Shown: positions 20,956-39,963 of the stretch, in pieces
How the letters are laid out: each line of letters begins with the position of its first letter
Numbering within the stretch: the stretch's first letter is position 1
NCBI RefSeq assembly: GCF_009765775.1
Contig: NZ_LMUU01000259.1
Location: forward strand, 33,173 to 97,172
DNA length: 64,000 nt
Reading direction: 5' to 3'
Origin: Beijerinckia sp. L45
GTDB taxonomy: Bacteria; Pseudomonadota; Alphaproteobacteria; Rhizobiales; Beijerinckiaceae
The notes under the pieces: model-generated
Told to the model about the DNA's origin: nothing
The model's input: only the letters and a program-made list of their open reading frames with translations
Databases searched by the model: none
Position numbers and translations under genes: made by a program

Positions 20956-21489
20956 TCAGCCGAGGCGATTGTATCCGGCGCGCCAATAGACGAGCGCTCC
21001 GTCGCCGCCGAAAGCTCGTGTCTCCCGGACCCGGCCGATGACGATAGTGTGGGAGAAGCGATCGACGAGATCCTCGACGTCGCATTCGAACGAGGCGAGG
21101 GCGTTGGCCAGAACCGGCGGGTAGTCCGATCCGCCGATCCAATCGCCGCCGGCAAAGCGGTCGGCGCCCTGGCTGCCGTCGCGTCCTGCGAAGCGATCGG
21201 CGATCGCCTGATGCTCATGGCCGAGAATGCTGACGCCGAAGCGACCATGACTTTTCAGCAGCGGAAGGCCCGACGCGCTCTGTTTGACACAGACGAGAAG
21301 GCTCGGTGGATCCGCGGACAGTGAGGTGACCGATGTGGCGGTCAGGCCGCCGCGCTCGGCGCCCCCGCCCACCGTGATGATGCTGACGCCGCCGACCAGG
21401 TGGCGCATCGCGGCGCGAAAACTTTCGCGCTCGGTATCGGTGTGCGGCACGGGCTCGCGCGGAACGCTGGGAGAGACTGAAACGGTCAT
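20956..21489 (-). CDS. Flavin reductase (RutF/HpaC-like)
   Basis: A 177-residue member of the flavin-reductase domain family, which reduces FMN or FAD with NAD(P)H for partner monooxygenases. Visible family stretches are FRAAMRHLVGGVSIITVG near residue 25, the segment GLTATSVTSLSADPPSLLVCV at about 48-68, FGVSILGHEHQAIADRF and a final HTIVIGRV. These match HpaC/RutF-type enzymes. It is the last gene of the long minus-strand run that begins with the RutA-like flavin monooxygenase at 27747, so it probably supplies that enzyme with reduced FMN, the role RutF has in the Rut pathway. The gap of 74 bases to the preceding permease gene is compatible with one transcript. Confidence 0.82.
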   Translation of the reverse strand: MTVSVSPSVPREPVPHTDTERESFRAAMRHLVGGVSIITVGGGAERGGLTATSVTSLSADPPSLLVCVKQSASGLPLLKSHGRFGVSILGHEHQAIADRFAGRDGSQGADRFAGGDWIGGSDYPPVLANALASFECDVEDLVDRFSHTIVIGRVRETRAFGGDGALVYWRAGYNRLG

Positions 21490-21563
21490 CGGGTATTGGG
21501 CTCTTGGTGTAGGGGCATGGTGAAAGGCAGCCGATCCGGGCGGTCTACTTCCCCGTCTTTGCG

Positions 21564-22502
21564 TCAGCGGGCGCTGCGGATGAACGGACGTCCGAGGTCA
21601 GACGGCCCCGTGGCGCTTCGTCCGATCGCGACCCACGCGACGAGCGCGAGAACGAACGGAAACATCAGAAGAAGGGCGGGGGATATGTTGAGGCCGATCG
21701 ATTGGCCCTGGTACTGCAACGCGTCGGCGCAGCCGAACAGGATCGAGGTCAACACCACCCAGATCGGATTCCAGCGCCCGAAGATGGCGATCGCGATCGA
21801 CAGATAGCCGCGGCCGGCGGTGATGTCGTCGACGAAGACGCCGCCCGACGCCACGATGGCGAGATAGGCCCCGCCGAGGCCGGTCATCGCGCCGGTCGCC
21901 AGCATGGCGCCGAAACGGATCGCGGTCACCGACAGACCCGCCGCATCGGCGGCCGTGGCGCCCTCGCCGGCGGCCCGGACCAGGAGGCCGAGCCGCGTAT
22001 AGCGAAACATCAGCCACAGGAGCAGGCCGGCCACGACGCCGCCGTAAAGCAGCGGGCTTTGCGAGAACAGGCCGCGCCCGACGATCGGCCAGGTCGAGAG
22101 CACCGGGATCTTGTAGACCGAGACGGCACGCACCGAGACGGATTCCGTCGGCCCGGCCAGGAGAAGCTGGCGGAGCAGCGACGTGGTTCCCAGCGCCAGC
22201 AGGTTGAAACCGATGCCGGTGACGACCTGATCCGCGCGCATGATCACGACGGCCGTCGCCAGGATCGCGGCACTCGCGACACCGCCACCGACGCCGGCGG
22301 CGACCCCGAGCATCGGCGACCCGGTCAGCACCATGGTCGCGGCACCGGCGAAGGCGCCGATAAGCATGATGCCTTCGAGCCCGATGTTGAAGACGCCGGC
22401 GCGTTCGGAGATCAATTCGCCGAGGCTTGCCAGGATCAGCGGGCCGCTCAGGCGAACGGCCGAGGCGAGGAACAGCCCGAGCGTTACCGCGTCGATTTCC
22501 AC
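21564..22502 (-). CDS. BMP-type ABC transporter permease 2
   Basis: A 312-residue inner-membrane subunit of a nucleoside/nucleobase importer (NupQ/YufQ-like). It has multiple hydrophobic segments and the family text LGELISERAGVFNIGLEGIM at about residues 25-45. The start is a GTG at 22502 that lies inside the end of the preceding permease gene (overlap of 19 bases). A longer open frame continues upstream but only mirrors that gene. It pairs with the permease encoded at 22484-23590, the ATPase and the BMP receptor. Confidence 0.88.
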   Translation of the reverse strand: MEIDAVTLGLFLASAVRLSGPLILASLGELISERAGVFNIGLEGIMLIGAFAGAATMVLTGSPMLGVAAGVGGGVASAAILATAVVIMRADQVVTGIGFNLLALGTTSLLRQLLLAGPTESVSVRAVSVYKIPVLSTWPIVGRGLFSQSPLLYGGVVAGLLLWLMFRYTRLGLLVRAAGEGATAADAAGLSVTAIRFGAMLATGAMTGLGGAYLAIVASGGVFVDDITAGRGYLSIAIAIFGRWNPIWVVLTSILFGCADALQYQGQSIGLNISPALLLMFPFVLALVAWVAIGRSATGPSDLGRPFIRSAR

Positions 22503-23590
22503 AAGGGTCTCCCTTTCAGAAGCAGGACGCCATGGACGCAGGCCAGGATCACGATGGGCAGGCCGGTCATGATGTCCGACAGCGCGCCGGGAATGCTGAG
22601 CACGCTCTGAAGCGCCAAGGTTCCGCTCGATATGGCGCCGAAGTACAGCGCGACCAGCACGGTCGCCAGGGGCTCGAGGCTGCCGAGGTAGGCGATGGCG
22701 AGACCGTCGAAGCCGATGTTGGTGCTGAACCCGTCGATCAGCCGGTACTGCACGCCCAGGACTTCGGTGGCGCCAGCCAACCCGCCGATCGCGCCCGAAA
22801 TCGCCATCGAGCTGACGAGAAGCCGGGCAACCGGGAGGCGCTGCACCTGCGCGGCTCGCGGACTCAGCCCGGTGGCGCGGAGGCGAATGCCATAGGCCGT
22901 ATGATACAACAGGAACCACACGACCGCGGCGGCGAGCAGCGCCAGAATCACCCCGGCATGAAGCCGCGTGCCGGGGACGAGCACCGGGAGGATCGCGCCA
23001 TCGGCCACCTTGGCCGACATGTTGAACTCGGATCCCCGTGGCTGCAGCAGCCCCTGGACGAGATATTTGACGAGATAGATGCCGATGAAGTTGAGCATCA
23101 GGGTCACGATGATCTCGTCGGCCCCCCGCCAGAGTTTTAGGACGGCGGGAATCAGCGCCCAGAGCGCGCCGAACGCCGCGGCGCAGAGGCATGACAAGGG
23201 AAGCAGAAGCCAGCCTAGGGAGGGCGGAAGCATCGTCGCGGGCAGGATCGCGCCGATCGCCCCGACCTGCAGCTGTCCCTCGCCGCCAAGGTTGAACTGG
23301 CCACACCGCAGAGCCACGATGGCGCCGAGCGCCACGAGAAGCCGCGGCGCCATAAAGACCAGCGTATCGGCGAACGCCCGTTGCGATCCGACGGCGCCCA
23401 TCACGAAAACGGACAGGCCGCGGCCGGGGGCGACGCCCAGCGCCGCGAGAATGCCGAGGACGAGGATGAGACTGACGGCGAAGGTCGCGAGAACGATGCC
23501 GAGGCGTAGGCCGCCGCCGCCGAGATCGAGCAGGCGCGCGCGCCACGATATCGGCGGCGGGAACGCGTCAGTTGCGACATCTGTCTTCAT
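22484..23590 (-). CDS. BMP-type ABC transporter permease 1
   Basis: A 368-residue inner-membrane subunit (NupP/YufP-like). Family text includes ALRCGQFNLGGEGQLQVGA at about residue 95, followed by further membrane segments and the cytoplasmic coupling region RLRATGLSPRAAQ. The ATG at 23590 overlaps the stop of the ATPase gene (ATGA), which sets the start. With the other permease it would form the heterodimeric channel for the substrate delivered by the BMP protein. Relatives import nucleosides or purine/pyrimidine bases. Confidence 0.9.
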   Translation of the reverse strand: MKTDVATDAFPPPISWRARLLDLGGGGLRLGIVLATFAVSLILVLGILAALGVAPGRGLSVFVMGAVGSQRAFADTLVFMAPRLLVALGAIVALRCGQFNLGGEGQLQVGAIGAILPATMLPPSLGWLLLPLSCLCAAAFGALWALIPAVLKLWRGADEIIVTLMLNFIGIYLVKYLVQGLLQPRGSEFNMSAKVADGAILPVLVPGTRLHAGVILALLAAAVVWFLLYHTAYGIRLRATGLSPRAAQVQRLPVARLLVSSMAISGAIGGLAGATEVLGVQYRLIDGFSTNIGFDGLAIAYLGSLEPLATVLVALYFGAISSGTLALQSVLSIPGALSDIMTGLPIVILACVHGVLLLKGRPLWKSTR

Positions 23591-25110
23591 GACGCCATCC
23601 TGCTTGCGATGTCCGCATCGCGTCCCCCGACCATCCACTGGCCGAGGCGATCGGCGGTGGCATCCACGCCGGCGATCTCGCCCGCGAACTCGCCCTCGTA
23701 GAGAACCTTGATCCGATCGCTCATGCGCATGATCTCCTGCAGGTTGCTGGAGATGAGTAGGACGGCGAGGCCGTCATCCGCGGCGCCGCGGAGTCGCGCC
23801 AGCACCTCTTCGCTCGCCGCCACGTCGAGGCCGCGGGTCGGCTGGTAGACGATGAGGACGCGCGGGGCGCCGCTGAGCGCCCGGGCGATGACGATCTTCT
23901 GCTGATTGCCGCCGGAGAGACTGCGCGCCGGCAGCGCGATGTCGGCGGTCCGCACGTCGTAGGTCTTGGCAAGGTCGCGGGCCCGCATCGCGATCGCGCC
24001 ATGTCGCAAGACCCCGAAGCGGGAATAGGCGGCGCCGTCGAGCTGGTCGAGCAGCAGGTTGATCGATACGGGAAGATCGAGGATCAGGCCTTCGGTGTGC
24101 CGATCCTCGGGAACGAGGTTGACGATCGGCCGCTGCCGTGCGTCCATGGCCCGGGTCCACACCCGGCCCGTGACCGGCGCCCGCAGGCCCGCCAGGATAT
24201 CGAACAATTCGCGTTGGCCGTTCCCTTCGACGCCGGCGATGCCGACGACTTCACCCGCGCGCACTGTGAGGTCGACGGCGTGCAGACCGGACGAAAAGGC
24301 GGTGCCTGGAACCGACACGCCTTCGAGGCGCAGTTCCTCCTCGCCGACCGCGTCGACGCGGCCCGGCAGCCGGCTATCGACGGCGACGCTGCGCCCGACG
24401 ATCTGCTGGACCAGCGCGTCGCGATTCATCTCCTTGGTCAGAGCGGTGCCGACGAGCGTGCCATGGCGGATCACCGAGACGCGGTCGCTGTAGCGCAACA
24501 CTTCGTCGAGATGATGCGTCACGGCGACGACGGCGTGACCTTCCCGGGTGAGGTGGCCGAGCACGCCATAAAGCGATTCCGCCTCGCGGGGGTTGAGGAT
24601 CGTCGTCGGCTCGTCGAGGATCAAGACGACGGCCTCGTTGACCAGCGCTTTCAAAATTTCGACCCGCTGCTGGATGGCAAGCGGCAGACGCCCCGTCAGG
24701 GCGGACGGATCGAGCGTCATGCCATAACGCTCGGCGATCGCCGCGACGTCGCGGTCCGTCCGGAGTTTGGCACGCACGGCCGGCCGTGCCGCGAGGCACA
24801 GGTTTTCTTTGACGGTGAAACTCGGCACAAGTTTGAAATGCTGGTGCACCATGCCGATCCCGTTGGCGATCGCGTCAGACGGGCTCCGGTGGATGACCTG
24901 GCGGCCATCGATCAGGATGCCACCCTCGTCCGGCTGCTGAAGGCCGAAGAGGATGTTCATCAGCGTGCTCTTGCCGGCGCCGTTTTCGCCGACGATCGCG
25001 TGAAGCTCGCCTTTGCGAAGGGACAGGGACACGCGATCCAGCGCCACATGCGCCTTGAAGCGCTTGGTCACATGGTCGATCGCGACGATCGGCGTGTCCC
25101 GCATGTCCAT
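23587..25110 (-). CDS. BMP-type ABC transporter ATP-binding protein (double NBD)
   Basis: A 507-residue protein with two nucleotide-binding domains in tandem. NBD1 has Walker A GENGAGKST at about residues 36-44 and Walker B LILDEPT. Its signature is degenerate (LPLAIQQR, where an LSVG-type motif is usual). NBD2 has the relaxed Walker A GVEGNGQRE but a perfect signature LSGGNQQK. Its Walker B region reads VLIVYQPTRGLD, with Gln where Glu is catalytic in most ABC proteins. This asymmetry is typical of sugar/nucleoside importers in which one ATP site is weak. It lies 8 bases downstream of the BMP receptor gene. Confidence 0.92.
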   Translation of the reverse strand: MDMRDTPIVAIDHVTKRFKAHVALDRVSLSLRKGELHAIVGENGAGKSTLMNILFGLQQPDEGGILIDGRQVIHRSPSDAIANGIGMVHQHFKLVPSFTVKENLCLAARPAVRAKLRTDRDVAAIAERYGMTLDPSALTGRLPLAIQQRVEILKALVNEAVVLILDEPTTILNPREAESLYGVLGHLTREGHAVVAVTHHLDEVLRYSDRVSVIRHGTLVGTALTKEMNRDALVQQIVGRSVAVDSRLPGRVDAVGEEELRLEGVSVPGTAFSSGLHAVDLTVRAGEVVGIAGVEGNGQRELFDILAGLRAPVTGRVWTRAMDARQRPIVNLVPEDRHTEGLILDLPVSINLLLDQLDGAAYSRFGVLRHGAIAMRARDLAKTYDVRTADIALPARSLSGGNQQKIVIARALSGAPRVLIVYQPTRGLDVAASEEVLARLRGAADDGLAVLLISSNLQEIMRMSDRIKVLYEGEFAGEIAGVDATADRLGQWMVGGRDADIASRMAS

Positions 25111-25118
25111 CGTGCTAG

Positions 25119-26105
25119 TTACTTCTCGACGTCGATTTTCTTGGTGGCGATCGCGTCGATGACGGCGAGCGTCTTGGTCTCGACGGCCTTGTCCACGTGC
25201 TTGAACGGCGTGCTCAACGTCCAGGCTTTGCCGGCGAGATCGAGCGGCACGACCTTGTCGCCAAGCGTGTGGTCGGTGAACATCTTGCCGATCTGATCGT
25301 AGGCCATCGTGTAGTTCAGCATGGTGCTGCTGACGATGGCGTTGGGAAACTTGGCGCCTTCGTCGGTATATTCACCCATCGTCATCGCGGTTTCCTGATC
25401 CGCGGCCTGCTGAATCCCGGCATCCGCCGCGTCGGCGGAGGGGATCACGAAGTCCGCACCCCGGGCGATCAGACCCGTCGTGATCTCCTTCGCCTTGGCG
25501 ACATCGGTGAACGAACCGGTGAAGACGGTGTCCACCTGGATTTTCGGATCGACGCTCTTGGCGCCCTTAATCATGAATTCGATCGACCGCTTGGCGGAAG
25601 GAATGGGCTCCGCGGCGACGATCGCGATGTGATGCGTCTTGCTCGCCCCGGCGCCCAGAGCGCCGACGACGTAACCGTACTCATCCCAGTTGACCGACCA
25701 GGCCGTATAGTTCTTCAGGCCATGGCTCGAGTCGGCATAGCTGTAGAGGACGAACTGCGTGTTGGGGAAATCCGGAGCGACTTCCTGGATCGCCGCGGCA
25801 TAGCCGGACGAATGACAGATGATCATCTTGACGCCGCGCGAGGCCAACTGGCGCAGCAGTGCCGGCGCCTTCTCGTACGACGCACCCTCGACGTGAGATG
25901 GTTTGAAGTTATACTTCTTGGCCATCTTCTCGAAGGCCTGATAGCCGCCGACATCCCAGCTGCCCTGCGTCACCGACCCGGTGAAGAGACCGGCGACCTC
26001 CGGGAGATCAGCCGCAAATGTCGGCGCCGCGCTTCCCGAGACGGCAAGGGCGGCGGCGGAGACGAGGAGCATGCGGCGGGCGAGGCTTTTGTTCATAGGG
26101 GTCAT
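25119..26105 (-). CDS. BMP family ABC transporter substrate-binding protein
   Basis: A 328-residue exported receptor of the basic membrane protein (BMP/Med) family, whose members bind nucleosides or bases. It has an N-terminal export signal (RRMLLVSAAALAVSG, cleavage near AFA-AD at residue 31). Family text includes GSWDVGGYQAFEKMAKKYNF, MIICHSSGYAAAIQEVAPDFPN and ADQETAMTMGEYTDE. No lipobox Cys is seen, so it should be a free periplasmic protein. It stands between the ridA gene (129 bases upstream) and the ATPase. The location after a RutA-like oxygenase suggests that it captures the heterocycle that the oxygenase attacks. Confidence 0.9.
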   Translation of the reverse strand: MTPMNKSLARRMLLVSAAALAVSGSAAPTFAADLPEVAGLFTGSVTQGSWDVGGYQAFEKMAKKYNFKPSHVEGASYEKAPALLRQLASRGVKMIICHSSGYAAAIQEVAPDFPNTQFVLYSYADSSHGLKNYTAWSVNWDEYGYVVGALGAGASKTHHIAIVAAEPIPSAKRSIEFMIKGAKSVDPKIQVDTVFTGSFTDVAKAKEITTGLIARGADFVIPSADAADAGIQQAADQETAMTMGEYTDEGAKFPNAIVSSTMLNYTMAYDQIGKMFTDHTLGDKVVPLDLAGKAWTLSTPFKHVDKAVETKTLAVIDAIATKKIDVEK

Positions 26106-26233
26106 GACCGTCGTGTTTCTATCTGGAGGAGGCGTTTCGGCAGGAAGCGGCTATCGGCAAGGCGAGAAAATCGGGCTGGCAGGTCGTGATCAAACTTGTG
26201 GCGTCTGCATCGGCGTAAGGGACTGGCAGCCGG

Positions 26234-26632
26234 TTACGCCGCACCATGCGGCAGCATCACGGTGACGTCGATTTCGACCAGCAGGTCCGGCTCGGCAAGG
26301 CCGGCGACCAGGATGAACGTGCTGGCGGGGTAGGGGCCGTCGCCGAAGAAACGCCCGCGTTCCGCATGCAGGGCGGGGAGGAAATCGCGGCTTGTCGCGT
26401 AGGTCACGAGCTTCACGATATCCTGTCGTGTCGCGCCGATCTCGGTGACCAGGGCGTCGATGTTGCGCCACGTCTGCGCAATCTGTGCCGCGATGTCGCC
26501 GGGCCCGACGATGATGCCGTCGCCATCCCAGGCGACCTGGCCGGTCAGGAACACCGGCGTTCCGGCCTTGACCACGGCATGGTTGTAATAGCTTTGCGCC
26601 TTCAGAGCTGGTGGATTGACGAGCCGCGTCAT
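26234..26632 (-). CDS. RidA family protein lacking the catalytic arginine
   Basis: A 132-residue member of the YjgF/YER057c/UK114 (Rid) family, which form trimers. The family end PDLLVEIDVTVM is clear. In RidA and RutC an arginine follows Pro-Ala near the end (P-A-R); here the text is PAST with Ser104 at that place, so imine/enamine deaminase activity of the RidA type is doubtful. Its ATG overlaps the stop of the RutA-like gene (ATGA), showing tight coupling to the oxygenase. A second Rid protein in the window (32088-32489) keeps the Arg and is the better RutC candidate. This one may hydrolyse or isomerise a different ring-opening product, or act as a binding partner. Confidence 0.85.
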   Translation of the reverse strand: MTRLVNPPALKAQSYYNHAVVKAGTPVFLTGQVAWDGDGIIVGPGDIAAQIAQTWRNIDALVTEIGATRQDIVKLVTYATSRDFLPALHAERGRFFGDGPYPASTFILVAGLAEPDLLVEIDVTVMLPHGAA

Positions 26633-27747
26633 GCCGCCACCTGCCGCTGATTTGCGGAGGCGGTGGTGACGATGCCGTCTGCGGCCAATGCCGCCACGAC
26701 GTCCGTGCCGACAGTTCTGAGATCGTCGATGAAATCGGGCACGATCACCGTCACGCCGTTGAGATTGGCCCCGCGGATGATCGTCGCGAGTTTGCGCGCG
26801 ATGGTTTCGGGCGAGCCGATGACCGCAGCCTTGGTGATCGAGCGAGCCTCGGTCCCCTGCTGAATGAAACGGTTGGCCATGGTGTTCTGCTTGAGGCTTT
26901 TGTCGCCGGAATATTCCCGCGTCTGGTTGTCCAGAGCCACGCGATCGACGCCGGAATTGAACAAGGCCACGCGATCCTCGGCCTCCTTGTCGGTTGCGCC
27001 GGGCACGATGGTGAACAGGCCATAGGTCTTGAACTCAGGGCGATTCATGTCCGCGGCGATCTCTTTGGCGCGCAAGCCCGTCTTGATGAAATCGTCGGAG
27101 TCGCTGCCGAGCAGGAAGCTCCCGGTGCAGTTCTCGACGGTGAAGCGGAACCCGCTGTCGGAACCGCCGGCGCAGATGATCGGCGGCAGCTTCGCCGGCT
27201 TGGGATTGGACATGCAATCGGTCAGCGTGAAGAACTCGCCTTCGTGGTCGACCCGCTCCTCGGTCCACAACCGCTTGGCGACGGTGATCCATTCCTTGGC
27301 GAGGGTGTAGCGGCCGGCGTGATCGAGGTCGCGCCACAGACCCATCTGGCCCTGGTCGCTCGGATTCGAGCCGGCTACCAGATTGAGGCCGAACCGTCCG
27401 CCGGAGATCTGGTCGAGCACCGCAGCCATCTTGGCCACCACCGCCGGATGGAACACCATCGTATGAACGGTGCCCCACACGCCGATGCGGCTCGTCGCCT
27501 CCGCAATCCCGGACATCGTGGTGAGGGATTCGAGCGTGGTATCCCAATGCTTGCTCGGGCCGCCGTAGCCGCGCCATTTCGCCATACTGAGCGCGAAATC
27601 AAATCCAAGGTTCTCGGCGAGGACCGCGACCTGCTTGTTGAAGGCATAGGTTGCCGGCGTTTCGGGGCTTGTCGTCGACGTGATCCAGCCGCCGTTTCCG
27701 ACAGGCAGGAAGACGCCGAGCTCTACGGATTTTTCAGCCAAGCCCAT
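26629..27747 (-). CDS. RutA-like flavin-dependent monooxygenase (LLM class)
   Basis: A 372-residue luciferase-like monooxygenase, family of the pyrimidine oxygenase RutA that opens the uracil ring between N3 and C4 using FMNH2 and O2. Shared text includes ELGVFLPVGNGGW near the start, FDFALSMAKWRGYGG at about 45-59, ISGGRFGLNLVAGSNPSD at about 121 and PIICAGGSDSGFRF. The match to RutA is clear but not close throughout, and the residues after NLV differ (AGSNPSDQ against TGWQKPEY). The substrate may therefore be uracil or another cyclic amide. The start at 27747 is preceded by GAGGATAG; the longer frame upstream has no family similarity. It heads the operon with RidA, BMP transporter and flavin reductase. 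Confidence 0.85.
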   Translation of the reverse strand: MGLAEKSVELGVFLPVGNGGWITSTTSPETPATYAFNKQVAVLAENLGFDFALSMAKWRGYGGPSKHWDTTLESLTTMSGIAEATSRIGVWGTVHTMVFHPAVVAKMAAVLDQISGGRFGLNLVAGSNPSDQGQMGLWRDLDHAGRYTLAKEWITVAKRLWTEERVDHEGEFFTLTDCMSNPKPAKLPPIICAGGSDSGFRFTVENCTGSFLLGSDSDDFIKTGLRAKEIAADMNRPEFKTYGLFTIVPGATDKEAEDRVALFNSGVDRVALDNQTREYSGDKSLKQNTMANRFIQQGTEARSITKAAVIGSPETIARKLATIIRGANLNGVTVIVPDFIDDLRTVGTDVVAALAADGIVTTASANQRQVAA

Positions 27748-28146
27748 TGCTCTATCCTCGTGGCGAAAGGGGTACGTCGCTGGGCAAAATCTAGCAGCCC
27801 GCCGCCGCGGGCGCATACCCGAGATTGCACTATGCCGCGTTGCCGGAGTCGCAACGCTCAATCCCACGCAAATCTTTTGGGCGTTTCCTGGCCGAATGTG
27901 CCACTCAGTCGTGCATAGGGCGCCAACTTTGTCGCGACGATTCTACGCTTTTCCTAAAAGGTCAGTGAACATAAGGCGATGGGAAAAGCGCCGTCTGCCG
28001 CCAGAAGCAGCACAGTTTGGCGTTGCAGTTTGGGCAACAAGCATCCGCTCGATCGGTGTTACGGCTCGACGCGGGCACCGATTAACAAGAGATCATCAGC
28101 ACAGAACGCCGAGCTTCTGGTTTGAGGCAACACCACCACCAAGCGC

Positions 28147-28171
28147 CACAAAATGCGCAATTGGTTTTGTG
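28147..28171. promoter_or_regulatory. Inverted repeat upstream of the porin gene
   Basis: CACAAAA (28147-28153) and TTTTGTG (28165-28171) are 7-base arms around an 11-base centre that includes TGCGCA. It lies 75 bases before the porin ATG, a suitable place for an activator or repressor of the divergent genes. It does not contain the symmetric T-N11-A of LysR boxes. Confidence 0.4.
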
Positions 28172-28193
28172 TGCCACTTACCTTTAGCGCGGA

Positions 28194-28217
28194 CGGGTCG
28201 CGGGGGATCGCGACCCG
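28194..28217 (+). promoter_or_regulatory. Leader hairpin of the porin gene
   Basis: CGGGTCGCG-GGGGAT-CGCGACCCG is a perfect 9-base-pair stem with a 6-base loop, 29 bases before the porin ATG and just upstream of its GAGGGGAC ribosome-binding site. It could stabilise the messenger or gate translation, as seen for many porin leaders. There is no T-tract, so termination is unlikely. Confidence 0.45.
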
Positions 28218-28246
28218 CTGTATGGATCTCACGAGGGGACGAAACC

Positions 28247-29788
28247 ATGAAACAGCGCTATTTTGAGTCCGGAGGCATCGGCCTCGTTGCCATCGGCCTG
28301 CTCGCCCTGACCGTCACCGCGGGTAAGGCTGCGGAGCAGTCGAGCGCCGCGCTTGACACGCCCAATGCGACGGCGCCGACGGTATCGGTGGCTCAAAAGC
28401 GTCGCATCAAGCTGCGGCACCGTGCTGTGTATCGGGGTGGTGCAACCGGATCGAACGCCGGCCGGATCTCGCCCGACTCGCATCCCGCCGCGCTGGCCGC
28501 TCCCGTGGCGGCAGGCCCGACCGGTCCCCTGTCCAAGGTCGGCAAGGCTTTTGAGGACGCCGGCATCACGCTGCATCTCTTTGAAGTCGAGACCTACTAC
28601 AACAACCTCAATTCCGGCATCGTCAAGAATTCCAGCAGCAATACCGCCTTCTTCGTCGCCGGCGCCGACTTCGACATGGGTCATATTGCCAACATCACCG
28701 GCGGCACGGTGCATGTCGAGGAGCAGCTGTTCCACGGCGAGGTCAACGTTCTGTCGACCGGCGCGCGCTACGGCGGCCTGACGTCCGGATACGAACCCGT
28801 CTACAATCCGACGGATAACCAGCTGACCGTGCTGACCTACGAGCAGAAGTTTGCCAACGACAAGCTCGACATCGAGATCGGTCGTACGAATGCGCTCAGG
28901 GCGTTCATCCTGCCGATCTGCCCCAACCTCGTGAGTTGCTGGAACGACGTCGTCGAACAGGATGCCCGGACCCGTACGGGCCACTCGGCATCATGGGGGG
29001 CTCGCGCGGCCTACAACATCACCCCGGCGCTTTACGTGCAGGCCGGCGCCTATGAGGACAATCCCGATGCCGAGGCCGAACACGGCTTCAACTTCGCGGC
29101 AACGAAATCGACGGGCGCCATCCTCCTCGGCGAAGTCGGCTACAAAACCGACTACACGACCGCAAAATATCCCGAGCGCGTCGAGGCGGTCGGCTTTTAC
29201 AACACGTCCACGGTCGCAGACCCCTATTTCACGACCACCGGCCAATCGGCGGCCCTCAATCCGGGTCAGCCGCTCAGAATGAACACCGGCGACGGCGGCT
29301 TCGTGCTCGACGCCATCAAGACGGTCTGGCGCGCTGACGGTGGTCTCACCGACAACCTTCACCCGACGGCGCTTGCGGCCTATGCCAGCGTCTCGGCACC
29401 CGTGACCTCGGGTGCCCTTGTCAGCATGGAATCCTACGTCGGATTGACGCTGCTGGCGCCGTTCCAGAGCCGTCCCTTCGATACGTTCGGTGCGAAGATC
29501 CACTTCACGCAGCTTTCGAACCGCGAACAAGCCTATCTTCAGGACTCCAACATCGCCGCCGGTGGTTCCGGGTACACCAAGTCGCGCAACGGCATCGAGT
29601 TCGAATTGAGCTCGCATCACCAGATCGCCAGCTATCTCGCGATCAACACGACGATCCAGTATTTCGCCAACAACAACAATTTTTACAACCCGGCGTCGAC
29701 GGTCGCCTCCCGGGACGGCTTCTACTTCGGCATGGACGCCGCGGTTCCGATCGGCGCCATCCTGGGCCTTTCGAGCCAGCCTTACTAA
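28247..29788 (+). CDS. OprB family carbohydrate-type outer-membrane porin
   Basis: A 513-residue exported protein of the OprB family. The signal peptide reads GLVAIGLLALTVTAGKAAE. A variable basic/proline stretch follows, and then the porin barrel from about residue 95 (FEDAGITLHLFEVETYYNN). The barrel contains LDIEIGRTNALRAFILPICPNLVSCWNDV, a well-conserved OprB region with two cysteines. The end GFYFGMDAAVPIGAILG is barrel-like but stops in SQPY rather than F. OprB channels pass sugars and other small solutes. Placed between the RutA-like operon and the RutC/RutD genes, it may admit the heterocyclic substrate. The start is set by GAGGGGAC at proper spacing; the long frame upstream is not coding. 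Confidence 0.85.
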   Translation: MKQRYFESGGIGLVAIGLLALTVTAGKAAEQSSAALDTPNATAPTVSVAQKRRIKLRHRAVYRGGATGSNAGRISPDSHPAALAAPVAAGPTGPLSKVGKAFEDAGITLHLFEVETYYNNLNSGIVKNSSSNTAFFVAGADFDMGHIANITGGTVHVEEQLFHGEVNVLSTGARYGGLTSGYEPVYNPTDNQLTVLTYEQKFANDKLDIEIGRTNALRAFILPICPNLVSCWNDVVEQDARTRTGHSASWGARAAYNITPALYVQAGAYEDNPDAEAEHGFNFAATKSTGAILLGEVGYKTDYTTAKYPERVEAVGFYNTSTVADPYFTTTGQSAALNPGQPLRMNTGDGGFVLDAIKTVWRADGGLTDNLHPTALAAYASVSAPVTSGALVSMESYVGLTLLAPFQSRPFDTFGAKIHFTQLSNREQAYLQDSNIAAGGSGYTKSRNGIEFELSSHHQIASYLAINTTIQYFANNNNFYNPASTVASRDGFYFGMDAAVPIGAILGLSSQPY

Positions 29789-29895
29789 GGTTTCAAAAAC
29801 GACGACAAAGATCCGCCTTGCGGTTCCGGCTTCCGGGATCGCAGGGCGGCATGCTGTTTGGGTCCAACGCAGATGCCAACACGCGAAACGTGGAC

Positions 29896-30831
29896 TCAGG
29901 GCCGCTCGACCTGCGGCACGCCGCTGTAATCGATATCGCCGATCATCGCGAATTCCTTGGCGATCTTCTTGAGAAACTCGGTGGCGGCGTAGGACAGCGG
30001 GCGTTCGCGATGCACGCAGATCGTCGACTTGGCGCCCGCGAATTCCGGCTCTTCGATCGGCACCGCCTTCAGCAACCCTTCCTGGATTTCGCGCATCGCG
30101 GAGAGCCGCGGCCCGATCGTCACGGCGCGGCCCGCAAGCGCAATGCCGCGCGTCAGCTCGAGCTTGTTCGTGGACAGCATGACGCGTGCCGACAGCTTTC
30201 GGGCGGCGATCGCGCGATCGAAAATCTGGCGCAGCCCAAAGCTTCCAAGCGGCAGTGCGACCGGAACGTCGCAGATCTCGGCAAGCGATAGGCTGGCGCG
30301 GTTGGCGAGCGGGTGGTCCTTGCTCAACAGGCACACCACCGGCTCGACATGTTCCGCCACGACCTCGATCTCATCGCGCGGACGGCTGTTGTAGACGGCC
30401 GCGATGTCCGCTTCGTTGCGGATCAGCGCCTCAATCATGCGGTCGGTCGAATCGGACGTGACGGTGAAATTGATGGCGGGATACTGCGCATTGAATTCGG
30501 AGATGACGCGGGGCAGGAAGCCCGAGACGATGCCGTCCATCACGCATAGTTTGACCTCGCCCTCTTGCAGACCTTTGAAATCCTTGATCGAGGCCTGCAG
30601 CCGCTCAAGGTCGTTGAACATGCCGAGCGTATAGCGTTCCACCATTTCGCCGGCCGGCGTCAGCATGATTCCGACGTTGGTGCGCTCGACGAGCAACGCG
30701 CCAAGACTGTGTTCGAGCTGCACGAGCTGTCGGCTCACCGCCGAAGGTGCGATATGCAACCGGTCGGCGGCGCGGCGGATCGATTTCGTCTTGGCCACTT
30801 CATTAAAATACTTGAACGCCACGAAATTCAT
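29896..30831 (-). CDS. LysR family transcriptional regulator
   Basis: A 311-residue LysR-type regulator. The winged helix-turn-helix is at residues about 1-60 (FNEVAKTKSIRRAADRLHIA and SAVSRQLVQLEHSLGALLVER). The co-inducer-binding domain follows from about 90 (GEVKLCVMDGIVSGFLPRVI). It is transcribed away from the RutD-like gene, and the shared gap contains a GTTGCCG-TAA-CGGCAAC palindrome with the T-N11-A pattern expected of a LysR box. This suggests that it regulates the rutD-rutC unit and itself, perhaps also the porin and oxygenase operons on either side. The start at 30831 is the one that gives a standard LysR N-terminus. Confidence 0.9.
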   Translation of the reverse strand: MNFVAFKYFNEVAKTKSIRRAADRLHIAPSAVSRQLVQLEHSLGALLVERTNVGIMLTPAGEMVERYTLGMFNDLERLQASIKDFKGLQEGEVKLCVMDGIVSGFLPRVISEFNAQYPAINFTVTSDSTDRMIEALIRNEADIAAVYNSRPRDEIEVVAEHVEPVVCLLSKDHPLANRASLSLAEICDVPVALPLGSFGLRQIFDRAIAARKLSARVMLSTNKLELTRGIALAGRAVTIGPRLSAMREIQEGLLKAVPIEEPEFAGAKSTICVHRERPLSYAATEFLKKIAKEFAMIGDIDYSGVPQVERP

Positions 30832-31238
30832 TGCTGGTCGCCTTCTTCGCCCTCGCGCGGCAGAGCATCTGGCGCCGATGCCGTGTGATGCAAAACCGAG
30901 GCCACAAGAGCCATTTCCGTTGCCGTAACGGCAACAAGCGTCCATTCGTTTGGGTGAACTCGATCGACGGATCGTGCGTCCGCCAAGGTCCGTCCGAGCG
31001 ATCGCCTTGATTATGCGACGCGAGCGGAGCGCAAAGCGCGAGACCCACGAGACAGCTCAATTCGGGCAACGCCGCCGTCTCGACTTTGATCTACGGCGAT
31101 GCAGGGCCAGTTGCTACTGACGGCATGTCGCGCGGCGGTGCCGCCTTGGGCTGCAAGCCTGTCGAAGCAAGAATCTCAACACCGACGGACATGGCGCATC
31201 ACGCGCCCTTCGTCCGCGCTATTCTGGGGGCATGGACA
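30832..31238. other. 407-base divergent gap between lysR and the RutD-like gene
   Basis: No gene is seen. The open frame preceding the RutD-like gene reaches back to 31086, but that part has no family similarity and is treated as leader. The gap holds the LysR-box palindrome at 30919-30935, 88 bases from the lysR start. Confidence 0.5.
30919..30935. promoter_or_regulatory. LysR-box palindrome
   Basis: GTTGCCG-TAA-CGGCAAC, with perfect 7-base arms and a 3-base centre. It contains T-N11-A (T at 30921, A at 30933), the hallmark of LysR recognition sites. It lies between the divergent lysR and rutD-like genes and is thus a strong candidate for the binding site of the adjacent regulator. Confidence 0.6.
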
Positions 31239-32027
31239 TTGGCTTTTGTCGCGGTCGAGGATTCGGAGTTCTACTACGAGATCTCCGGTGAGGGGCCGCC
31301 GGTCGTCCTCGTCACGGGCCTCGCCGGTGTTGCCTCCTATTGGGAGCCGAACATCGCCGAGTTGCGGAAGCATTTTACGGTGCTTCGCTACGATCATCGC
31401 GGAACCGGCAAAAGCGTGCGATCGGAGCGTGATTATTCGATCGAGATGCTGGCCGACGATCTCCTGGGCCTGATGGATGCCGTCGGCTTCGAGCGGGCTT
31501 CGCTCATCGGCCACTCGACGGGCGGCGCCATCGGACAGGTCCTTGCAGCGCGCTATCCCGAGCGCATCGATCGTCTCGTACTGTACGGGACGTGGGCGAC
31601 CCTGTGCCCGCAGATGCGGCTCTGCATGGAGCTTCGGCTGAACCTGCTGGACGCCTATGGCGTCGCGAAATATCATGAGGCATCGCCGATCTTCCTCTAT
31701 CCGCCGCGCTTCGTCTCCGATCAGTGGGACCGGATCGCGCGCGATCTTGTCGCGGCGGTTGCGAACTCGACGACGCCGTCGATCCTGAAAGCGCGCGTCG
31801 CTGCCGTCGTCGATTTCGATGGCTCGTCCTATCTGCCCGACATCGAGTCGACGACCCTGATCCTGGTTGCGCAGGACGACATTCTGACGCCGGCCGGCTG
31901 CTCCGAAGAACTGGCGCGAGGGATCCCGCATGCGACGCTCAAGGTTTTGTCCGACGGCGCGCATGCCGTGTCCCACTGCGATCCGAAAACCTTCAACGAC
32001 ACCGTCATCGCCTTTCTGACTGTCTGA
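31239..32027 (+). CDS. RutD-like alpha/beta hydrolase
   Basis: An alpha/beta hydrolase of about 262 residues. The nucleophile elbow GHSTGG has Ser93, RYDHRGTGKS lies at about residues 50-59, and the acid and His are in VAQDDILTPAGCS and DGAHAVSHCDP. The text ASPIFLYPPRF and the CSEELARGIPHA region follow E. coli RutD closely, which is proposed to help hydrolyse aminoacrylate. I choose the TTG at 31239: it follows GGGGG at good spacing, and its product starts FVAVEDSEFYYE, matching the family N-terminus. ATG starts further upstream would add residues with no similarity. It is followed after 60 bases by rutC, as in known rut operons. Confidence 0.82.
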   Translation: MAFVAVEDSEFYYEISGEGPPVVLVTGLAGVASYWEPNIAELRKHFTVLRYDHRGTGKSVRSERDYSIEMLADDLLGLMDAVGFERASLIGHSTGGAIGQVLAARYPERIDRLVLYGTWATLCPQMRLCMELRLNLLDAYGVAKYHEASPIFLYPPRFVSDQWDRIARDLVAAVANSTTPSILKARVAAVVDFDGSSYLPDIESTTLILVAQDDILTPAGCSEELARGIPHATLKVLSDGAHAVSHCDPKTFNDTVIAFLTV

Positions 32028-32087
32028 CACGGCGATTGGCTTTTGCATGCCGATCGCACCACCCGAACCCGAGAAGAGGACCCGACC

Positions 32088-32489
32088 ATGAATACGCCAA
32101 TCAACCCGAAAGACTGGATCCGCGGCAAGACCTCGGCCGGCACCTATCATCTGAACTGGGGCGTCAAAGCGGGAAATCATGTCTATGTCGCGGGCATGCT
32201 GGCCACCGACCCCTATGATGGCAGCATCGTCGGTGTCGGCGATATCGAAGTCCAGACGCGTCGCGTCCTCGACAGCATCAAGACTGTGGTCGAGGCGGCA
32301 GGCGGCACGATGGACGACGTGACGTTCAATCAGATCTTTCTGCGGGACCTTGCCGACTACGACAAGATGAACGCGATCTACGTCGAGTACTTCCCCAACC
32401 TTCTGCCGGCGCGGTTTTGCGTCAAACTGGAAATGGTGAAGCCGGAGTTCCTCGTAGAGATCGCGACGACGGCCGTGCTGTCCGCGTAA
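32088..32489 (+). CDS. rutC: RutC-type RidA family protein
   Basis: A 133-residue Rid protein very close to E. coli RutC, which deaminates or processes 3-aminoacrylate formed during uracil breakdown. Diagnostic text is VEAAGGTMDDVTFNQIFLRD at about residues 68-87, NAIYVEYFP at 95-103, and PARFCVKLEMVKPEFLVEIA. The conserved Arg (R109) of active Rid enzymes is present. The start is preceded by GAAGAGGAC. It stands directly after the RutD-like gene and before a strong terminator, so these two genes form one unit. Confidence 0.9.
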   Translation: MNTPINPKDWIRGKTSAGTYHLNWGVKAGNHVYVAGMLATDPYDGSIVGVGDIEVQTRRVLDSIKTVVEAAGGTMDDVTFNQIFLRDLADYDKMNAIYVEYFPNLLPARFCVKLEMVKPEFLVEIATTAVLSA

Positions 32490-32533
32490 CGTCGATCGCA
32501 GGACAATCCCCGCCTTCCCAACACCCGCACCAA

Positions 32534-32572
32534 GACCGCTGCGACGCCTCGACGTCGCAGCGGTCGTTTTTC
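32534..32572 (+). terminator. Strong factor-independent terminator after rutC
   Basis: GACCGCTGCGACG and CGTCGCAGCGGTC form a perfect 13-base-pair stem with a 6-base loop, followed by GTTTTTCTT. It lies 45 bases after rutC and ends 27 bases before the dehydrogenase gene, so it separates the rutDC unit from what follows. Confidence 0.85.
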
Positions 32573-32598
32573 TTCCTCAGCCTTGACGCAGTGAGCTC

Positions 32599-33489
32599 AT
32601 GACGACTATCGCCTTCATCGGTCTCGGGAACATGGGTGGCCCAATGGCGGCCAACCTGCAAAGGGCCGGTCACACTGTCGTAGGCTACGACGTCCAGGCG
32701 GAAGCCTGTGCCGCGGCGAAAGCCCGGCACATCGTGATTGCGTCGTCGGTCGCCGCTGCGGCACGCGATGCCGACGTCATCGTCACCATGCTTCCCAGCG
32801 GTGCCTTGGTGAACGCCGTCTGGCGGGAAGCGACGCGGGCCGCTCGTCCCGGCACGATGATGATCGACTCTTCGACCATCGATGTCGCCAGCGCGCGGGA
32901 GGCCCATGCTTTGGCCCAGGCCGCAGGCCATGCGTCGCTGGATGCGCCGGTTTCGGGCGGCACCGAGGGCGCGAGCAACGCGACCCTGACGTTCATGGTC
33001 GGTGGCGCGGCGGACACGTTCGCACGCGCCAATCCGATCCTTGCCGCGATGGGTCGCAAGATCGTGCATTGCGGGATCGCCGGAAACGGTTAGGCGGCGA
33101 AGATCTGCAACAACATGATCCTCGGCATCTCGATGATCGCCGTCAGCGAGGCCTTCAATCTTGCGGAGAAGGTGGGGCTCTCGCATCAGGCCCTGTTCGA
33201 TGTGGCTTCGACCGCGTCGGGCCAGTGCTACGCGCTGACCGTGCATTGCCCGGTGCCTGGGCCTGTCCCGACGTCGGCATCGAACCGCGATTATCAGCCA
33301 GGCTTCGCGGCGGAGCTGATGCTGAAGGACCTGGGCCTGTCGCAGAGCGTGGCGAGCGCCGAAGGTCTGGGAACGCCGCTTGGCGCAGCCGCGTGCGACA
33401 TCTTCGATCGGTTCGTGCAGGCCGGCGGCCGCGGCAGGGATTACTCAGCCGTCGTCACCTACCTGAAGCAGCTCCATCCATCAGCCTGA
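32599..33489 (+). pseudogene. 3-Hydroxyisobutyrate/beta-hydroxyacid dehydrogenase, amber-interrupted
   Basis: A member of the beta-hydroxyacid dehydrogenase family (MmsB, GarR, malonic or tartronic semialdehyde reductases). The NAD(P)-binding start FIGLGNMGGPMAANL is at residues 6-20 and the substrate loop DAPVSGGTEGAS at about 115. The catalytic-lysine block should read GNGQAAKICNNM, but its Gln codon is TAG (33091-33093, codon 165). Both halves are in one frame, so a single C-to-T change accounts for it. Intact, it would have 296 residues. In the Rut pathway a reductase turns malonic semialdehyde into 3-hydroxypropionate, so this enzyme suits its place after rutDC. As read, the first 164 residues lack the catalytic Lys. 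It may be a true pseudogene, a sequence error or a read-through case. Confidence 0.85.
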
Positions 33490-33584: not shown

Positions 33585-33872
33585 ATGAAGGTGGCCGCAG
33601 ACCTGTGTATCGTGCCGATGGGTGTCGGCCCGTCGGTTTCACCCTATGTGCGGGAGATCAGGACGATCATCGAGTCCAGTGGCCTCACCGCGACGATGCA
33701 TGCCAATGGCACGAACGTCGAGGGCGAGCTGAGCGCCATCTGCCGCCTGGCGGAGCAATGCGAAGCCAGGCTCGCCGAGCTGGGTGTCGAACGCACCTTC
33801 TTCACCCTGATCTTTTCGACGCGTCGCGACAAGGATCAGTCGATGGCCGACAAGATGGCTGCCGTCTCCTAA
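33585..33872 (+). CDS. MTH1187/YkoF-type thiamine-binding family protein
   Basis: A 95-residue protein of the DUF77/MTH1187 family. Characteristic text is VPMGVGPSVSPYVREI near the start, then SGLTATMHANGTNVEGEL. Members bind thiamine or related compounds and form tetramers; the role in most bacteria is not settled. No thiamine (TPP) riboswitch pattern is seen in the 95 bases upstream. It follows the interrupted dehydrogenase. The ATG at 33585 is preferred over a TTG at 33570 since the family starts here. Confidence 0.75.
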   Translation: MKVAADLCIVPMGVGPSVSPYVREIRTIIESSGLTATMHANGTNVEGELSAICRLAEQCEARLAELGVERTFFTLIFSTRRDKDQSMADKMAAVS

Positions 33873-37281: not shown

Positions 37282-38061
37282 TCACGCCACTTTTGGCGCG
37301 AGATGGCTGTGCAATTGCCTCCCGATCATCCGGCGCACGTCGCTGAAATCGTGGTCGGCGACGTCGCGGGGGCGGGGCAGGGTGACGGCGTGGACGGAGT
37401 CGATGCGGCCGGGGCCGGGCGACATCACCACGATGCGGTCGGCGAGCACGATGGCCTCCTCGATCGAGTGGGTGACGAAGATCACTGTGAGGCCGGTGCG
37501 CTGCCACAACTCCAAGAGTTCGGCCTGCAGCCGCTCGCGGGTCATCGCATCGAGCGCGCCGAAGGGCTCGTCCATCAGCACCACTTCGGCCTCGTTGGCG
37601 AGCACCCGGGCGATCGCCACGCGCTGCTTCATGCCGCCGGAGAGCTGGTGGGGATAGGCGTCGGCGAAGCGCTGCAGGCCGACGAGCTCGACGTAGCGCT
37701 CCACGGTGTCGCGGATCTCGGCCTTCGGGCGTTTGCGCGAAGTCGGCCCGAAGGCGATGTTGCCGCGCACCGACAGCCAGGGGAACAGACCGTAGTCCTG
37801 GAACACCATGCCGCGGCTCGGCATCGGACCGGCGACCGGCTTGCCCCACATCAAAATCTCGCCGGACGTCGCGGTCTCGAAGCCGGCGACGATGCGTAGC
37901 AGCGTCGATTTTCCGCAGCCGGACGCGCCGATGATGCAGATGAACTCGCCGCGCTTGATCGTGAGACTGGCGCCGCGCAGCGCGTCGATGCGCTGGCCCT
38001 GCAGGCTGAAGGTTTTCGACACGTCGCGGATGTCGAGGATCGGCAGCGCGGCCTTATCCAT
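37282..38061 (-). CDS. ABC transporter ATP-binding protein, SsuB/TauB/NrtD-like
   Basis: A 259-residue ATPase of the nitrate/sulfonate/taurine importer family. Walker A GASGCGKST is at residues 45-53, the Q-loop text MVFQDYGLFPWLSVRGNI at about 85-102, the signature LSGGMKQR at 140-147 and Walker B VVLMDEP at 160-166. The FQDYGLFPWLS text is typical of SsuB/TauB. It overlaps the permease gene by eight bases. The imported compound cannot be deduced. Confidence 0.9.
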   Translation of the reverse strand: MDKAALPILDIRDVSKTFSLQGQRIDALRGASLTIKRGEFICIIGASGCGKSTLLRIVAGFETATSGEILMWGKPVAGPMPSRGMVFQDYGLFPWLSVRGNIAFGPTSRKRPKAEIRDTVERYVELVGLQRFADAYPHQLSGGMKQRVAIARVLANEAEVVLMDEPFGALDAMTRERLQAELLELWQRTGLTVIFVTHSIEEAIVLADRIVVMSPGPGRIDSVHAVTLPRPRDVADHDFSDVRRMIGRQLHSHLAPKVA

Positions 38062-38887
38062 GGGTAGGGCTCCAGGCCAGCAGGCGGCGGCCGATCAGCA
38101 TCAGCGCGCGGTCGGAGAGGTAGCCGGCGATGCCGATCACCAGCATGCCGCAGATGACGAGATCGGTGCGCGACAGCTGGCGGGCTTCCATGATGACGGC
38201 GCCGAGCCCCGTCTGCACCCCGGTCATCTCGCCGACGACGATGACCACCCAGGCGAAGCCGAGGCCAAGCCGCAGGCCGGTGAAGATCGAGGGCAGCGCC
38301 GCCGGCAGCACCACACGCGAAAATTGCGCGCGGGGACCGCAGCCGAGCATCGCCGCCGCCTCGAACAGCCGCGGCTCGACCGAGCGGACCCCGAAAATCG
38401 TGTTGAACAGCACGGGGTAGAAGGCGCCGAGAAAGACGAGAAAATAGGCCGAGCGCGGGCCGAGGCCGAAGAGGATCATCGACAGCGGCAGCCACGCCGT
38501 GACCGGCACCGGGCGGAGGAACTGCAGCGTCGGGTCGAACAGCCGCTGCGCCAGCGGCACCCGGCCGATGAGCATGCCGAGCGGCAAAGCCAGCAGCGTG
38601 GCCAGCGCGAAGCCACCGAACACCCGCGACAGCGAGGCGACGAGATGGGTCAGGAGGGTGGCGCTGAAAGCGTCGTCGTTGATGCCGCCGACGGCGAAAT
38701 CCTGCATCGCCGTCCAGACGTCGGCGGGCGGCGGGATCAGGCTGTAGGGCCGGCCGGCGGTCGCAAGGTGCCAGCCGGCCAGGAAGATCACGGGCAGAAT
38801 AAGGGCGAGCGCCGGCGTCTTCAGCCGCGCCGCAAGGTTTTGGCCGCGCGGGATGGCAGGCGCCAAGGGATCGGCGGCCAGCGTCAC
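38054..38887 (-). CDS. ABC transporter permease, SsuC/TauC-like
   Basis: A 277-residue inner-membrane protein of the family found in nitrate/sulfonate/taurine importers. It has an FLAGWHLATAGRPYSLIPPP opening, several hydrophobic segments and the coupling loop EAAAMLGCGPRAQFSRVVLPAALP. The GTG at 38887 overlaps the stop of the receptor gene (GTGA) and fits the operon pattern. The long frame upstream mirrors the receptor gene. Order receptor-permease-ATPase is standard. Confidence 0.88.
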   Translation of the reverse strand: MTLAADPLAPAIPRGQNLAARLKTPALALILPVIFLAGWHLATAGRPYSLIPPPADVWTAMQDFAVGGINDDAFSATLLTHLVASLSRVFGGFALATLLALPLGMLIGRVPLAQRLFDPTLQFLRPVPVTAWLPLSMILFGLGPRSAYFLVFLGAFYPVLFNTIFGVRSVEPRLFEAAAMLGCGPRAQFSRVVLPAALPSIFTGLRLGLGFAWVVIVVGEMTGVQTGLGAVIMEARQLSRTDLVICGMLVIGIAGYLSDRALMLIGRRLLAWSPTHG

Positions 38888-39837: not shown

Positions 39838-39963
39838 AGAGGGAATTCCTGGGATTGCTGTGTCGATCTCGACTGCCAGCAAGGCCCGTGCCTTGATGTG
39901 AGGCAGGCGCGCGGCTGCGTCAGGGTCCCATGGCGGTGGGCGGCATGAAACAGGGTATGACGT

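Follow-up and report, generated by a model that had tools for sequence, protein, structure and literature searches.

A RutA-like gene cluster of Beijerinckia sp. L45 and its possible part in opening a thiamine-type pyrimidine ring

In the Rut pathway (rutABCDEFG with the regulator RutR), RutA breaks the N3-C4 bond of uracil, RutB is the hydrolase for ureidoacrylate and RutC the deaminase for 3-aminoacrylate (PMC8113886, PMC7662398). The known set of proteins for thiamine salvage consists of TenA, ThiXYZ and YlmB, and in thiaminase-producing Paenibacillus the salvage genes are riboswitch-controlled (PMC5627462). As for the breakdown of vitamins, a 2025 paper counts only B6, NAD+ and riboflavin catabolism as well characterised (PMC12746152), and the accessible passages of two papers on marine vitamin B1 (PMC10470507, PMC10881298) make no mention of catabolism, a deaminase or a luciferase. 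The window analyzed here, a stretch of 64,000 nucleotides from Beijerinckia sp. L45 (contig NZ_LMUU01000259.1, positions 33,173–97,172; all coordinates below are those of the window unless a contig or locus is named), carries a cluster of genes around a RutA-like LLM flavin monooxygenase (26629–27747, minus strand). Searches of the open-access PMC literature, itself incomplete, yielded no paper that places a RutA-type enzyme in thiamine breakdown, and we know of no bacterial pathway for opening the thiamine pyrimidine ring. We consider it rather probable that the cluster is a catabolic cassette under LysR control, whose substrate, a 2-alkylpyrimidine that most likely stems from the thiamine pyrimidine, is imported for RutA-like oxidative ring opening. 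The original prediction, made from this DNA alone, had settled on no particular substrate; comparison with related loci points to a thiamine-type 2-methylpyrimidine.

The cluster resembles the Rut pathway in its RutA-type group C flavin oxygenase with the O2-pocket residues kept, its flavin reductase, its RutC-like protein with the catalytic arginine, its RutD-like hydrolase and a terminal reductase gene. It differs by having neither RutB nor RutG, by the presence of a BMP-type ABC uptake system, a LysR gene and an additional Rid protein without the arginine, and by the linkage of some relatives to thiamine-pyrimidine genes. All four namesakes score under the NCBIfam cut-offs: the LLM reaches 260.3 bits against RutA (TIGR03612, cut-off 498.3), the RutC-like protein (32088–32489, plus strand) 127.7 vs 169.1, the RutD-like alpha/beta hydrolase (approximately 31191–32027, plus strand, start uncertain) 218.7 vs 238.5, and the RutF/HpaC-like flavin reductase (20956–21489, minus strand; PF01613 122.6 bits), the probable electron partner of the LLM, 112.8 vs 254.75. 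Judged by these profiles, the four proteins are related to the Rut families and not members of them. A profile search of the genome located RutA, RutB, RutC and RutD, adjacent and all over cut-off, on contig C53, while contig C199 (L065 8834–11203) has another RutA that passes the cut-off (639.6 bits), so that the search for a further rutA proposed in the original prediction gave two. The canonical rutABCD on another contig indicates that uracil is handled there. The claimed absence of RutB and RutG holds for the cluster; genome-wide, RutB was found over cut-off on C53 only and RutG as a weak match at best (101.3 vs 758.65, contig C260). As an observation apart, rutABCD on C53 (L063 8933–19389) forms part of an island of N-heterocycle catabolism, its neighbours encoding a dihydropyrimidinase, two amidohydrolases (one of TRZ/ATZ type, one for cyanuric acid) and a subunit of malonate decarboxylase. 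Between the RutA gene on C199 and the end of that contig lie a small gene that matches no family and then a gene for ribose-5-phosphate isomerase, but not RutB. A further RutA-like LLM (RutA 163 bits, below cut-off) lies beside a Rid gene 5 kb outside the window (C179:102245–103288, L064).

The residues of the cluster proteins were compared with those of their canonical counterparts. The O2 pocket of RutA is formed by L65, T105, N134, V136 and F224 (PMC10005588, PMC7662398, PMC8234197), and all five are kept in the window LLM. On the substrate side, Trp139 of RutA is replaced by Ser127, in agreement with the earlier remark that the enzyme departs from RutA after its NLV motif; among 32 family rows, including the window as well as second paralogues and partial sequences, this position is Ser in 28, Gly in three and Thr in one. 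The RutD-like proteins have Ser in a GHSTGG motif together with Asp and His (23/23, including the window's), whereas the canonical RutD proteins of E. coli, Pantoea and this genome have Ala in GHALG (3/3). The catalytic arginine of RutC, R104 (PMC8113886), is present in all 20 RutC-like proteins, and the other Rid protein (26234–26632, minus strand) has Ser at that position in 26 of 26. The phylogeny called for by the original prediction was built from 35 rows, namely 16 cassette LLMs, three RutA of canonical type and 16 others. It separates the cassette LLMs from RutA with 100/100 support; confidence is lower for several of its deep branches, and five of the rows are long. A plain second Rut operon was rejected on the profile cut-offs, the tree, the residues and the rutABCD of C53. 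A second, divergent pathway for uracil or thymine, which the likeness to RutA, RutC, RutD and RutF and the identical O2 pocket might suggest, is very unlikely in view of the same canonical genes over all four cut-offs, the four homologues under cut-off in a cluster devoid of RutB and RutG, the separate LLM clade, and the changes of Trp139 to Ser in the LLM and of Ala to Ser in the RutD-like protein. The closest LLM to that of the window is found in locus L037 (98/93), in which an amidohydrolase gene stands directly 3' of the Rid gene and no BMP transporter occurs within the 14.7 kb available. A separate RutA-like cluster was noted on plasmids of Paraburkholderia graminis and Acinetobacter baumannii (L053/L054), with an LLM 39–41% identical to that of the window and Ser at the Trp139 place; its partners are a cysteine/isochorismatase-type hydrolase, a gene annotated as M20 peptidase (L054) or hypothetical (L053), a flavin reductase and an MFS transporter, and it is probably a different ring-opening route.

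A single scan of a genome collection with six peptide patterns, in which relatives without these patterns are missed, yielded 29 loci with LLMs 60–79% identical to that of the window in the best segment. Their flanks extend to 10 kb at most and some are truncated. The hosts are Pseudomonas, Pantoea, Erwinia, Serratia, Rhizobium, Pararhizobium, Xanthobacteraceae, Acetobacteraceae, Sinirhodobacter, Burkholderia, actinobacteria and Paenibacillus. The most constant partner of the LLM is the arginine-less Rid protein, detected by tblastn in 28 of the 29 loci (the remaining contig stops within the LLM gene); the RutC-like protein was found by tblastn in 20. Clustering of open reading frames recovered LysR (29896–30831, minus strand, in the window) and the RutD-like protein in 22 loci each, the flavin reductase in 16 and an aldo/keto reductase in 15. 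The transporter consists of a BMP/PnrA-type substrate-binding protein (25119–26105; PF02608 109.6 bits), an ATPase with two ABC_tran stretches (23587–25110) and two BPD_transp_2 permeases with approximate starts (permease 1, 22484–23590; permease 2, 21564–22493), all on the minus strand; the binding protein, the ATPase and permease 1 recur in 20 loci and permease 2 in 19. Since these loci were found through the LLM alone, the presence of the BMP transporter in 20 of them indicates that the gene order is not due to chance, and the LLM-Rid-BMP transporter arrangement does recur, as had been asked in the original prediction. Of two circumstances which that prediction had jointly set against itself, a complete rut operon elsewhere and a lack of conserved gene order, the first was encountered in part, as rutABCD on C53 (rutE, rutF and rutG not shown there), whereas the order is conserved. 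In a class-wide sample of 385 genomes, only the window's own LLM exceeds 500 bits and five genomes give a match at E≤1e-100; the family being so rare there, co-occurrence was counted in the 29 loci and in plasmid records. Four distant LLM relatives added little beyond their rows in the tree.

The link to thiamine comes from the position of other genes. A TRZ/ATZ deaminase-type amidohydrolase, 47–86% identical to the protein of locus L051, lies within 10 kb of the LLM gene in 10 of the 29 loci (L022, L023, L027, L034, L037, L038, L039, L041, L044, and L048), five of which also contain a probable formylaminopyrimidine (FAMP) deformylase and six TenA. In L051, TenA scores marginally below the cut-off for thiaminase II (129.1 vs 130). 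Among 26 carrier genomes searched as a whole (those of the 29 loci except L033, L043 and L047), the amidohydrolase (at least 48% identity) was found in 10, exactly those in which it lies close to the LLM gene. Moreover, it matches at E<1e-100 in only three of 72,556 plasmid records, and all three carry the LLM; one is that of R. daejeonense, also represented by L023. Two plasmids contain the full set: that of Paracoccaceae La6, with genes annotated as thiamine biosynthesis protein, melamine deaminase, thiaminase-2 and FAMP deformylase, and that of Rhizobium ACO-34A, with thiamine biosynthesis protein, chlorohydrolase, thiaminase II and acetylornithine deacetylase. In Paenibacillus (L048), a single strand carries genes in the order deformylase-TenA-LLM-Rid-FMN reductase-ThiZ-ThiX-ThiY-amidohydrolase-MFS transporter, and in Curtobacterium (L038) the order is PF02133 permease-amidohydrolase-LLM-Rid. 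Seven loci (L022, L023, L027, L034, L041, L050, L051) contain both the BMP and the thiamine modules.

Comparison of upstream regions brought out a palindrome, GTTGC-N7-GCAAC. Three exact copies lie between the divergent genes of the window cluster, at 27839–27855 (97 bp 5' of the LLM start), 28022–28038 (also in the intergenic region between LLM and porin) and 30919–30935 (between the LysR and RutD-like genes), where 0.09 would be expected, and none of 100 shuffles gave three. In all, 37 copies were counted in the window, the 29 loci and two plasmid loci, compared with 0–3 (about 1 expected) in 10 first-order simulations; 33 of them stand within 330 bp 5' of a gene of the cassette or the thiamine module (LLM, Rid, LysR, RutD-like, amidohydrolase, ThiZ), with a spacing of 85–126 bp for nearly all starts of LLM, Rid and minus-strand amidohydrolase genes. 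Eight gammaproteobacterial loci have the palindrome 5' of a Rid gene located apart from the LLM gene. In L022 it precedes both the amidohydrolase and the LLM genes, and in L051 and L041 it is located between ThiZ and the amidohydrolase, in L051 also 5' of the RutD-like gene. L023 and L050 have a copy with one mismatch 5' of the amidohydrolase. No palindrome stands directly 5' of the thiamine genes in L027 and L034; there, ThiY-TenA-ThiZ-ThiX-amidohydrolase-deformylase follow downstream of the RutD-like gene on the same strand, and the RutD-like promoter has the palindrome. All 25 sequences that contain LysR have it (24 in front of one of the listed genes; two copies in L028 are not), and of the seven without LysR in their stretch only L041 has it, six having none. 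Its occurrence in both halves of the cluster suggests one regulon, in which LysR would be the protein that binds the palindrome, the proposed operator. Apart from this, a copy on contig C93 (L089, C93:2737) was noted near a second OprB-type porin gene, whose product is 33% identical to the window porin.

Some of the linked genes, TenA, ThiXYZ and a YlmB-type deformylase, are those of the salvage set (PMC5627462), and one could thus suppose that the loci serve salvage of degraded thiamine to hydroxymethylpyrimidine (HMP), with a side or repair role for the LLM. Homologous genes do occur near the LLM in several relatives, some with the palindrome. However, at the Rfam gathering score no thiamine pyrophosphate (TPP) riboswitch was found in the window or in eight thiamine-linked loci (L022, L027, L034, L039, L041, L048, L050, and L051, L023 being outside the scan), although a match occurs elsewhere in 11 of 12 carrier genomes, 10 of them over cut-off. 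The palindrome is instead tied to LysR, and the cassette loci differ from FAMP salvage by the joined deaminase-type amidohydrolase and ring-opening type oxygenase; a C4 deaminase would presumably destroy the HMP needed for thiamine synthesis. The lack of riboswitches at the thiamine-linked loci suits catabolism, and salvage appears highly improbable.

The genes of the cassette can be arranged in a putative pathway. The heterocycle would enter through the BMP transporter, and in relatives also through ThiXYZ; a 4-amino group, where present, would be converted by the deaminase-type amidohydrolase to the 4-oxo (amide) form. The LLM oxygenase with the flavin reductase might then cleave the N3-C4 amide in the manner of RutA and uracil. 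Because C2 bears a methyl group and not oxygen, the product would not be ureidoacrylate and could be an N-acetimidoyl or N-acetyl aminoacrylate. The RutD-like serine hydrolase may remove the acetamidine or acetyl group with release of acetate, and a product without a ureido group would explain both the missing RutB and the Ser nucleophile of the RutD-like protein. The RutC-like protein would deaminate 3-aminoacrylate, and the 2-substituted malonic semialdehyde would be reduced by the aldo/keto reductase of 15 related loci or by a HIBADH-type enzyme, which in the window has an in-frame stop. HIBADH acts on methylmalonate semialdehyde, which is closely analogous to what a 5-substituted pyrimidine would be expected to give. 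The computations show which genes are present, linked and conserved, as well as the palindrome and the residue changes; the substrate, every reaction, the binding of LysR to the palindrome and the role of the arginine-less Rid protein we infer from them. The more specific proposal is a dedicated, horizontally spread and LysR-controlled catabolism of the B1 pyrimidine, in which a RutA paralogue is remodelled on its substrate side, a Ser-triad RutD paralogue replaces RutB (with acetate as product) and the arginine-less Rid protein has a new role on an amidine intermediate; we see about even prospects for it.

Two known routes of vitamin breakdown offer partial parallels. The RutD-like protein weakly matches (E 4.2e-11) the alpha-(N-acetylaminomethylene)succinate hydrolase of B6 catabolism (3kxp), an alpha/beta hydrolase which removes an acetyl group from an N-acetyl enamide; B6 catabolism is a pyridine ring pathway with other oxygenases. 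A B6 ABC transporter (NF047927–30), the best NCBIfam name for the uptake genes, was rejected, being far below cut-off (BMP protein 100.3 vs 400, ATPase 438.7 vs 670). Riboflavin catabolism (RcaE; lum genes) is likewise begun by an FMN-dependent monooxygenase and follows other chemistry (PMC12746152), and no lum-like genes were noticed in the loci read, which were not searched for them specifically. As a side observation, a gene with a partial DHBP synthase (ribB) domain and ribA/ribBA genes lie near LLM clusters (L051 8201–8836 and L052 20440–22212), perhaps for FMN supply. Riboflavin as substrate was discarded, FMN supply being the simpler reason for rib genes near two relatives; this involved no search for lum or rca genes.

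Several observations weigh against a thiamine-derived substrate or limit the counts given above. The gammaproteobacterial loci are close copies, with LLMs at least 92% identical in many pairs, so that locus counts are not independent, and the palindrome was found on the same data in many related loci, which makes its counts descriptive. In the whole genome it occurs 17 times, three of them in the cluster, compared with 6 copies of a control pattern, and no clear further regulon members were seen at the ten of the 17 places inspected (eight outside the window). The name FAMP deformylase derives from the annotation of one record, whereas NCBIfam names the family acetylornithine deacetylase (L051 protein, PRK08596, 721.9 vs 412). 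Sixteen of the 26 carrier genomes have no amidohydrolase at E≤1e-60, 15 of these being BMP-type, and in 15 of the 20 BMP-type loci it is found neither nearby nor in the genome, so that the substrate of BMP-type cassettes may be a different compound or one deaminated beforehand. The genome of Beijerinckia sp. L45 itself has no amidohydrolase orthologue (best 32%), from which it follows that this strain may receive its substrate in deaminated form, rely on another deaminase, or use some other compound. A search of this genome for the deformylase, run without a positive control, was empty; it has two genes of the TENA/THI-4/PQQC family, one of which is probably PqqC to judge by the adjacent genes, while the other, an unlinked TenA, stands alone on C53. 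The plus-strand run of the cluster extends one gene past the dehydrogenase and ends in an MTH1187-family thiamine-binding protein (33585–33872; TIGR00106 77 vs cut-off 54.7, PF01910 82.4 vs 24.9), but MTH1187 proteins are widespread and the gene shows no linkage in the other loci.

Finally, LLMs encoded on plasmids of Sphingobium fuliginis ATCC 27551 (pSF2), Leisingera and Cupriavidus branch within the clade and have different partner genes, an indication that substrates can drift. The pSF2 cluster (L078 2126–9872) comprises the LLM, a Rid protein, a flavin reductase, an alpha/beta hydrolase and RutC. ATCC 27551 is a diazinon degrader (PMC8591295). Its LLM cluster is a candidate for opening the pyrimidinol ring of diazinon. 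The strain reportedly also uses the 2-isopropylpyrimidinol ring, which would fit a family preference for 2-alkylpyrimidinones. The accessible passages of the genome paper (PMC6934885) are silent on this use.

In an alternative reading, the BMP-type cassette, including that of the window, opens another 2-substituted pyrimidinone or N-heterocycle from plants, insects or pesticides, and only the variants with ThiXYZ and amidohydrolase serve the thiamine pyrimidine. The missing deaminase in mostly BMP-type carriers and the plasmid LLMs with other partners speak for it, as does the best solved relative of the BMP protein, the atrazine periplasmic binding protein 6pi5. On the other hand, there are the seven loci with both modules, of which three (L022, L041, L051) have an exact palindrome on the thiamine side and six, L041 being the exception, have one on the ring-opening side; moreover, the nearest relative, L037, has the deaminase, and the run of the window ends in the thiamine-binding protein. 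We regard this alternative as rather unlikely, and retain the thiamine pyrimidine as the most likely source of the substrate.

The genes named in the original prediction were confirmed at their positions (flavin reductase, BMP transporter, Rid, LLM, porin, LysR, RutD-like, RutC-like and dehydrogenase). Its assumption of a common ring-opening route stood in so far as the cluster is separate from the uracil Rut pathway, has its own ABC uptake and carries the palindrome in both halves, and found no support for the OprB-family porin (28247–29788, plus strand; PF04966 151 bits) and the dehydrogenase: at E≤0.01 neither is matched in any of the 29 related loci (the single hit of the dehydrogenase is to a riboswitch locus, L080); these two were consequently rejected as core parts. 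The HIBADH-type dehydrogenase (32599–33489, plus strand), put forward as a malonic semialdehyde reductase, contains an in-frame TAG at 33091–33093 and is either broken or read through, HIBADH being matched by both halves flanking the stop (186 and 144.1 bits). The stop, together with the lack of a linked aldo/keto reductase, deaminase or deformylase, may raise the thought of a decaying cassette that has lost its function in this strain; also in the genome no close aldo/keto reductase was found (best 44%). Very little credence can be given to decay, as the other genes are open, the LLM, RutD-like and RutC-like proteins keep the examined residues and the three palindromes are exact. No break in GC content was seen at the cassette. 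A few kb further, at 37282–39918, lies an SsuABC/NMT1-type ABC transporter; orthology to the linked ThiXYZ is not supported (ATPase 38%, permease 28%), and its binding protein matched only L020 (28%).

What is new here is the proposed extension of RutA-type ring opening to a new substrate. If this holds true, the cassette provides candidate enzymes, uptake systems, a regulator and an operator for opening the thiamine pyrimidine ring, and an old gap becomes testable by single-enzyme assays. RutA-type amide cleavage would then reach past uracil and thymine, and the existence of a Rut-like operon without RutB would be explained. It would also bear on the loss of thiamine breakdown products from the vitamin pool shared in soil, plants and sea water.

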